49,834 nt of DNA from positions 1 to 49,834 of IMG/VR virus record IMGVR_UViG_3300017991_000022; one strand, given 5' to 3'. Within the stretch, counting starts at the first letter, position 1, and the number at the start of each line of letters is the position of its first letter. The DNA comes from a virus. A program made the translations under genes and the position numbers. This document shows positions 2,409 to 2,654 of this stretch, piece after piece. A model generated the notes under the pieces. It saw only the letters and a program-made list of their open reading frames with translations. It did no database searches and had not been told where the DNA came from.

Positions 2409-2525
2409 TATGACCCCTCTGTGTAGAGTAAAAATGAGGAGCGTGGTTCCTCAGTGAAGCCTTACCGTAATCCCCGCACTGAAAGATACCACGCCCCCGG
2501 ACCTAAGGTAGCGAATCTCAGGTAA

Positions 2526-2654
2526 GTACACGGGCTAGGATTTGCACCTAGCATGGTAGTGGACGTTCTAGTTTGGCATCAGACTTGTTATAGCTGGGTT
2601 CCAGCGTCCACACCTAGCCAATTTTTAGCGTCTACCTATTCCGCCACCGTGTAC
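2526..2654 (-). ncRNA. Structured RNA with tRNA-Leu-like ends, no normal anticodon arm
   Basis: Read on the minus strand, an 8-bp closing stem GTACACGG/CCGTGTAC is followed by TG and a textbook class-II D-arm (GCGGAATAGGTAGACGC). The 3' side is a T-arm-like hairpin, GCTAGG-TGCAAAT-CCTAGC (6 bp, 7-base loop), stacked on the acceptor. Between them is about 75 nt with no 5-bp/7-base anticodon arm. It has a 7-bp stem GTGGACG/CGTCCAC, an internal GCTGG-AAC-CCAGC hairpin and a TTGGC/GCCAA pairing that would make a pseudoknot. GGCTAGG near the middle can also pair perfectly with CCTAGCC of the T-arm, an alternative fold. No CCA is encoded. It may be a tRNA relic, an RNase P processing site or a regulatory element. 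Confidence 0.6.

Follow-up and report, generated by a model that had tools for sequence, protein, structure and literature searches.

A tRNA-like RNA shell with exchangeable inserts recurs in phages and plasmids of the Bacillota

Which kind of RNA carries the D-arm and T-arm of a tRNA-Leu around something other than an anticodon arm? A first-pass annotation of the viral record IMGVR_UViG_3300017991_000022 (positions 1 to 49,834, here referred to as the window) raised this question by reporting a structured RNA of that description at 2526-2654. The observation is real, and its interpretation is partly supported: both arms are present in the sequence at those positions, and the anticodon arm is missing. 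The strand, left unstated by the annotation, was assigned in our analysis as minus (2654-2526), and so were the nearest neighboring ORFs. In the 5'-to-3' direction the layout is G-TACACGG-TG-GCG-GAATAGGTAGA-CGC-(72-nt payload)-CAT-GCTAGG-TGCAAAT-CCTAGC-CCGTGTA-C (Table 1). We refer to the tRNA-like parts as the shell and to the insert as the payload. The element is flanked upstream by the gene for a 71-amino-acid (aa) small protein and downstream by a 76-aa ORF; genes for thymidylate synthase and DnaB lie further upstream.

Table 1. Features of the tRNA-like RNA and its surroundings in the window
Feature	Position	Strand	Basis or remark
Whole tRNA-like RNA, shell and payload	2526..2654	-	Shell of the same kind in 200 unique relatives; z = -3.5
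Acceptor stem, 5' strand, TACACGG	2647..2653	-	7 bp; acceptor positions covary in relatives
U8-G9 and D-arm TGGCGGAATAGGTAGACGC, 3-bp D-stem, tRNA-Leu-type loop	2628..2646	-	Exact match, single copy in window; near-invariant in family
72-nt payload replacing anticodon and variable arms	2556..2627	-	Hypervariable, exchanged region in relatives
Payload stem, 5' strand, GGTGTGGACG	2605..2614	-	MFE fold
Payload stem, 3' strand, CGTCCACTACC, with bulged T	2555..2565	-	MFE fold; stem end in family is exactly the C of CATGC
Small hairpin CTGG-AAC-CCAG within payload stem	2594..2604	-	MFE fold
TTGGC, possible pseudoknot partner of GCCAA	2617..2621	-	Sequence only
GCCAA, possible pseudoknot partner of TTGGC	2573..2577	-	Sequence only
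T-arm: 6-bp stem GCTAGG/CCTAGC, loop TGCAAAT, G55 in place of U/psi55	2534..2552	-	Single copy in window
Acceptor stem, 3' strand, CCGTGTA	2527..2533	-	No CCA encoded
Discriminator base C	2526	-	Next base after acceptor 3' strand
Intrinsic-terminator-like hairpin TGAGGAACCACGCTCCTCA-TTTTT, ~70 nt downstream	2435..2453	-	Weak: 2 found versus 1.0 expected in region

Searches of the window for the D-arm (2646-2628) and for the T-arm CATGCTAGGTGCAAATCCTAGC (2555-2534) found a single match to each at a tolerance of 3 mismatches, against ~0.01 to 0.02 matches expected by chance, and the family versions of these arms (GGCGGAANAGGTAGAC and ATGCNNGGTGCAAATCCNNGC) together with the 7-bp acceptor all fall within 2526-2654 with zero mismatches. 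For the minus strand the folding energy is -44.9 kcal/mol (z = -3.5), and 0 of 200 shuffles were as stable. A good fold was obtained for the plus strand too (z = -4.1), as long helices would predict; since energy alone cannot choose between the two, we took the strand from the tRNA signature motifs. In the window the payload stem pairs GGU+GUGGACG with CGUCCAC+(U)+ACC, and its last base is the C of CAUGC, as in the family. Of the 8-bp closing stem first described here, 7 bp covary as an acceptor in relatives, whereas the eighth pair, G2654-C2526, corresponds to the -1 and discriminator positions and is unpaired in most of them. A promoter scan around the window element gave no more matches than chance.

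We compared the element with known RNA classes. ARAGORN called neither a tRNA nor a tmRNA at the window element, and among 4227 Rfam families the element was unmatched at gathering and the region unmatched at an E value of up to 10. The parts that define a tRNA, namely, a 7-bp acceptor, a D-arm, and a T-arm, are there in tRNA order, while the anticodon arm (5-bp stem and 7-nt loop) is replaced by the payload in all elements read. The idea of a tRNA mimic was right, whereas that of a tRNA merely carrying an insertion was not supported: no member read has an anticodon arm, ARAGORN made no call over the element in any of 143 related loci with introns of 0 to 300 nt allowed, and no intron family was matched in Rfam. 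A tmRNA-like RNA, also proposed, fared no better. The tmRNA model (RF00023) gave no match, ARAGORN in tmRNA mode overlapped no element, and payload lengths, checked for a tag ORF, fall in all three classes modulo 3; moreover, two Enterococcus phages have a separate, real tmRNA directly upstream, its 3' end at most 3 nt from the element start, as in tRNA arrays. In the loci scanned with Rfam 15, no family overlapped any element; ROOL was adjacent to the element in two loci and never overlapped it. At these loci, both of which have an Rfam ROOL match (L017:667-1248 and L081:709-1287), ROOL ends 10 to 13 nt before the element, a spacing that suggests cotranscription of the two.

When the region of the element was used as a blastn query, the D- and T-arms matched together in Bacillus phage SPP1, Enterococcus Schiekvirus phages, Paenibacillus phage Pd_22F, and others, with no RNA annotated there. 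A T-arm pattern scan yielded at least 119 loci in IMG/VR and 64 in species genomes; in a second IMG/VR scan the D-arm and T-stem frame were fixed, and the T-loop and acceptor were left free. Pooled, these scans gave 200 unique elements among the matches listed. The shell recurs in SPP1, SBSphiJ-type, Listeria, Enterococcus, and Paenibacillus phages, in Bacillota prophages, and in Enterococcus faecalis plasmids. Nearly every host with a verified shell belongs to the Bacillota (Bacillus, Paenibacillus, Listeria, Enterococcus, Leuconostoc, Lachnospiraceae, and others); the exceptions, a pair of metagenome bins labeled Saprospirales and Neomarinimicrobiota (L149 and L151), may be contamination. 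In the phage and plasmid records that we opened, the element is not annotated as RNA, and a few of them have a hypothetical-protein call that covers part of it. Queries with the 71-aa neighbor and the DnaB protein found no close relative of the window phage, so no natural swap can be demonstrated at the exact site of the window.

Selection maintains the tRNA-like structure of the shell. Family members have an acceptor of 7 bp, a T-stem of 6 bp, and D- and T-arms that hardly vary; about half of them have A as the discriminator, and CCA is not encoded. In a set found through D- and T-arm matches, without an acceptor criterion, 102 of 106 elements pair at 6 or more of the 7 acceptor positions. 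For covariation we removed the payload and used 50 of the 85 distinct-acceptor shells of that set, chosen regardless of acceptor pairing. In these 50 sequences, 98.5% of cells were paired, and the score was 0.569, compared to 0.127 for shuffled sequences and no more than 0.129 with the partners slid; changes on both sides of a pair occurred in 177 cells versus 47.6 in shuffles. Because the search pattern fixed them, the D-stem and four of the six T-stem pairs are uninformative in this set; compensatory GC-to-UA changes in the D-stem were found in the set collected with the T-arm only. Compensatory changes in relatives, the comparison on which the first-pass annotation had staked its reading, are present in the acceptor, the T-stem, and several payload stems.

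In an unbiased set, the T-loop is TGCAAAT in 86 of 102 elements and the canonical TTCAAAT in 3 of 102. Considering that the former dominates and the canonical UUC form is rare, we regard G at position 55 as a family trait. An altered T-loop also occurs in some tRNA-Gly species of staphylococci with a role in cell-wall synthesis. The weak EF-Tu binding of those tRNAs has been ascribed chiefly to pairs of the T-stem and to positions 18/19 (PMC4052509). A link between the altered T-loop and escape from translation may exist in our family by analogy and is only a lead. A clostridial subclass (L037, L107, L146, L158, L161, L172, L178, L184, and L187) carries a second insertion, within the D-loop (GGCGGAATAGAC...GGTAAAGC...AATAGTAGACGC), and two sites of the shell can therefore carry payload.

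In contrast to the near-invariant shell, the payload is hypervariable. The 200 unique elements hold 182 different payloads, which form 131 unrelated families at ~70% identity; a Chao1 estimate of ~470 payload families is rough, since sampling was by pattern. The inserts, of ~26 to 300 nt, have no shared sequence, no coding signal, and no common ends beyond the shell. A stem of at least 5 bp ending at the C of CATGC is nevertheless found in 78% of family representatives versus 33% of shuffles, an excess that disappears three bases away. Where a payload family has divergent members, this stem changes by compensation: at 4 of 5 pairs for L010, at 3 of 7 for Pd_22F, and at 2 of 7 for the family of L152. 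Because several insert families show such changes, we regard the inserts as structured RNAs under selection.

A crossing helix covaries in the L083/L152/L191 and Pd_22F families (GGGC/GCCC to GCCC/GGGC and CGGGTG/CACCCG to CGAGTG/CACTCG), which identifies these payloads as pseudoknots. A pseudoknot common to all payloads was rejected: 11 of 69 payloads had one at p values of up to 0.1, compared to 6.9 expected, and given this modest enrichment we claim pseudoknots only for families with covarying pairs. The pseudoknot proposed for the window (TTGGC with GCCAA) can form there, but pairing of this kind covaries only in some other payload families. A similar limit applies to the proposed switch between GGCTAGG and CCTAGCC of the T-arm, a perfect 7-bp alternative in the window (1.3% of shuffles reach at least 7 bp) that is not a family trait, being present in 3.1% of elements versus 3.9% of shuffles.

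Two further features of payloads were seen in passing. In Listeria payloads (L038, L347, and L348 versus L025), the loop of an internal hairpin occurs either as AAACGTATGT or as its reverse complement, ACATACGTTT, and the inverted-looking loop sits between the same stem arms, as if flipped. Six payloads (L018, L028, L034, L045, L052, and L055) contain a further TpsiC-type hairpin (GGTTCGA...), like a tRNA-like piece nested in the shell.

Payloads are exchanged as cassettes. In 19 locus pairs both 60-nt flanks are alike and the payloads are unrelated, and in 138 pairs the payload is shared and the flanks are unrelated; the pairs in both counts are not independent and derive from fewer lineages. 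Laboratory phages of B. subtilis provide the clearest example: SBSphiJ5 has an SPP1-type payload, while SBSphiJ1 and SBSphiJ7 have a Goe3-type payload at the same site, and the SPP1 payload also occurs in B. subtilis Herelleviridae. Payloads are likewise shared across temperate and virulent phages of Listeria and between myoviruses and 30- to 40-kb temperate-type phages of Enterococcus, and E. faecalis plasmids carry payloads found in Enterococcus phages. Plasmid NZ_CP138650 has an intact element; the 230-nt payload of pKUB3006-2 is identical at 226 of 230 positions to that of viral contig L081; and the version at this plasmid site in pMG2200 differs from it, is shorter, and has partly decayed. 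For the payloads searched, no copies outside a shell were found in 105 Enterococcaceae and 80 Bacillaceae genomes, a search run with no positive control, and the copies that we read in Listeriaceae were all in a shell except for one weak, AT-rich match. Decayed copies are found in P70, phiFL2A, phiNIT1, and pMG2200. Natural deletions in phiNIT1 (L340) and phiFL2A (L006) leave the D-arm joined to the 3' strand of the acceptor or to the T-arm; phiNIT1 has lost the payload and T-arm, and the phage still exists. At least some phages can thus do without the payload.

The element is, with high confidence, a tRNA scaffold with an exchangeable payload. In the explanation that we favor, it would be transcribed in a late or transfer operon or within a tRNA array, and RNase P at the 5' end and RNase Z at the 3' end would cut at the acceptor ends, a cleavage that we infer from tRNA biology and the close spacing to tmRNA. 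The tRNA-Leu-type shell would make the transcript a substrate for host tRNA maturation, giving a short, stable, discrete RNA. Its D- and T-arms, docked as in a tRNA, would hold a compact body with the payload stem in the place of the variable arm, an arrangement seen at the level of sequence, and the G55 T-loop and missing anticodon would keep the RNA out of translation. The payload would be the active part, swapped as a cassette between phages and plasmids of the same host as the shell stays fixed; to a processed, tRNA-scaffolded RNA that acts in trans through its payload we give even odds. It may bind and neutralize, or divert, a host factor, most plausibly in defense or counter-defense. Because a fixed carrier with exchangeable inserts across same-host replicons resembles anti-defense and host-interaction genes, counter-defense is the role that we favor, tentatively. 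No target emerged from the comparison with Abi_2/ToxN loci, the Rfam scans, or the search for payload copies outside a shell.

The genomic surroundings could also be read in another way. Among 71 proteins encoded around the elements, mostly by the first upstream gene, late transcription activators and sigma factors predominate, and terminase genes are the commonest class downstream; in E. faecalis plasmids the element lies between the surface-exclusion and aggregation genes. A typical site after the late activator and before the terminase genes, like the plasmid site, would suit a cis-acting leader or punctuation element, in which RNase P and RNase Z cut the shell and so separate or stabilize late or transfer operon transcripts, or prevent termination, and the insert hardly matters. 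However, other copies lie in tRNA/tmRNA arrays, between unrelated genes, or beside opposite-strand genes, and a cis role would leave the conserved, covarying, and exchanged payloads unexplained. We consider it unlikely, though the strongest of the alternatives.

Somewhat less likely again is a carrier of antisense RNA, stabilized by the shell, whose payload base-pairs with host or phage mRNA: this would account for hypervariability and for sharing within a host, but the payloads are strongly structured, and it is their stems, not single-stranded stretches, that covary. It is improbable that the payload is a selfish element of RNA or DNA, intron-like or transposing, that inserts as a passenger into a tRNA-like target; many different inserts at one site with sharp boundaries at the D-arm and CATGC would fit, but inserts so diverse in size lack any sequence, coding signal, or ends of their own in common, and we saw no payload-free shell with a normal anticodon arm. 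Neutral drift in the middle of degenerate phage tRNA genes, suggested by the tRNA-Leu-like D-arm and the clearly decayed P70, phiFL2A, phiNIT1, and pMG2200 copies, is the least probable reading and is already contradicted by a strongly covarying shell almost invariant across Bacillota, with D- and T-arms that decay would not have spared, by covarying payload stems, and by long payloads near-identical between unrelated replicons (226/230 nt).

Several other observations concern the neighborhood of the element. A conserved, covarying hairpin, G(T/A)TCGGGG(A/T)TAGCCCGG(A/T)C, lies directly 5' of the acceptor in SPP1, SBSphiJ phages, and L083 (L002, L331, and L083). Downstream of the element, L334, L335, L336, and L007 have another tRNA-like sequence, TGGCGTG...CACGCCA, whose T-loop is standard; it is present in both plasmids and a phage and is called tRNA-Arg in VEsP-1. 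In Nitunavirus phages (L331, L338, and L339), the element is followed by unannotated, structured-looking repeats (GGGTAGTGGTCAAGGGCTGTATCC... and GGGTAGCTGCGATCC...). Two candidate connections were rejected. The Listeria small RNA rliG was set aside as evidence of expression, as phage A118 has no element at the syntenic site. PrgU was reportedly studied on pCF10; we dropped a role in PrgU/prgB regulation on pheromone plasmids because the prgA-prgB gap of pCF10, annotated at just 192 bp, is too short for the pMG2200 arrangement.

To return to the scaffold with its exchangeable payload, we found no description of such RNAs in the open-access literature; an earlier one is possible in subscription journals or preprints, which lay outside that scope. 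These RNAs of phages and plasmids form a widespread class that apparently has not been described before. While tRNA-like RNAs as such are known, we know of no natural counterpart of a fixed tRNA shell carrying exchangeable effector-like RNAs. It is conceivable, though we would not yet bet on it, that Bacillota phages and conjugative plasmids share a natural, modular RNA weapon system, a fixed tRNA scaffold with hundreds of exchanged effectors, each of which would neutralize a host defense or take over a host function, like anti-defense protein islands. If this is right, a large class of phage and plasmid RNAs has been missed by standard annotation, even in SPP1 and the SBSphiJ family, which are well-studied laboratory phages, and mobile elements would be shown to swap RNA cargo, as well as protein, in their arms race with bacteria. 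The natural swap pairs in B. subtilis phages are ready material for finding the function of the inserts, and the conserved shell could serve as a natural scaffold for short-RNA expression in Bacillota.

Among known systems, class II tRNAs (tRNA-Leu) share with the element the 7-bp acceptor, U8-G9, a D-stem GCG/CGC with A14, a G18G19-type loop, the T-arm, and, in about half of the elements, discriminator A. In contrast to them, the element has a structured payload of ~26 to 300 nt instead of an anticodon arm and class II variable arm, a 6-bp T-stem, and the T-loop UGCAAAU, and it is missed by ARAGORN and Rfam RF00005. With tmRNA (RF00023) it shares tRNA-like ends around a non-tRNA middle and, in some members, pseudoknots; unlike tmRNA, it has no visible tag reading frame or Rfam match, and it coexists beside real tmRNA in phages. 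The large ROOL and GOLLD RNAs are structured and noncoding and are found in phages and prophages near tRNAs (PMC12286853), whereas the element is unrelated to them in sequence, is small, and combines a constant shell with a variable core. The RNA antitoxins of type III toxin-antitoxin and AbiF systems and their phage mimics resemble the payloads as short, structured, and often pseudoknotted RNAs. They lack a tRNA shell, and in a comparison of sequence, as distinct from structure-only mimicry, the 131 payload families scored no better against a limited sample of 41 Abi_2/ToxN loci than shuffled payloads did. The closest parallel in design is the engineered tRNA scaffold for RNA production, in which a foreign RNA placed in a tRNA body gains stability and processing; the element differs in being natural and of the Leu type, with the payload replacing the anticodon and variable arms.
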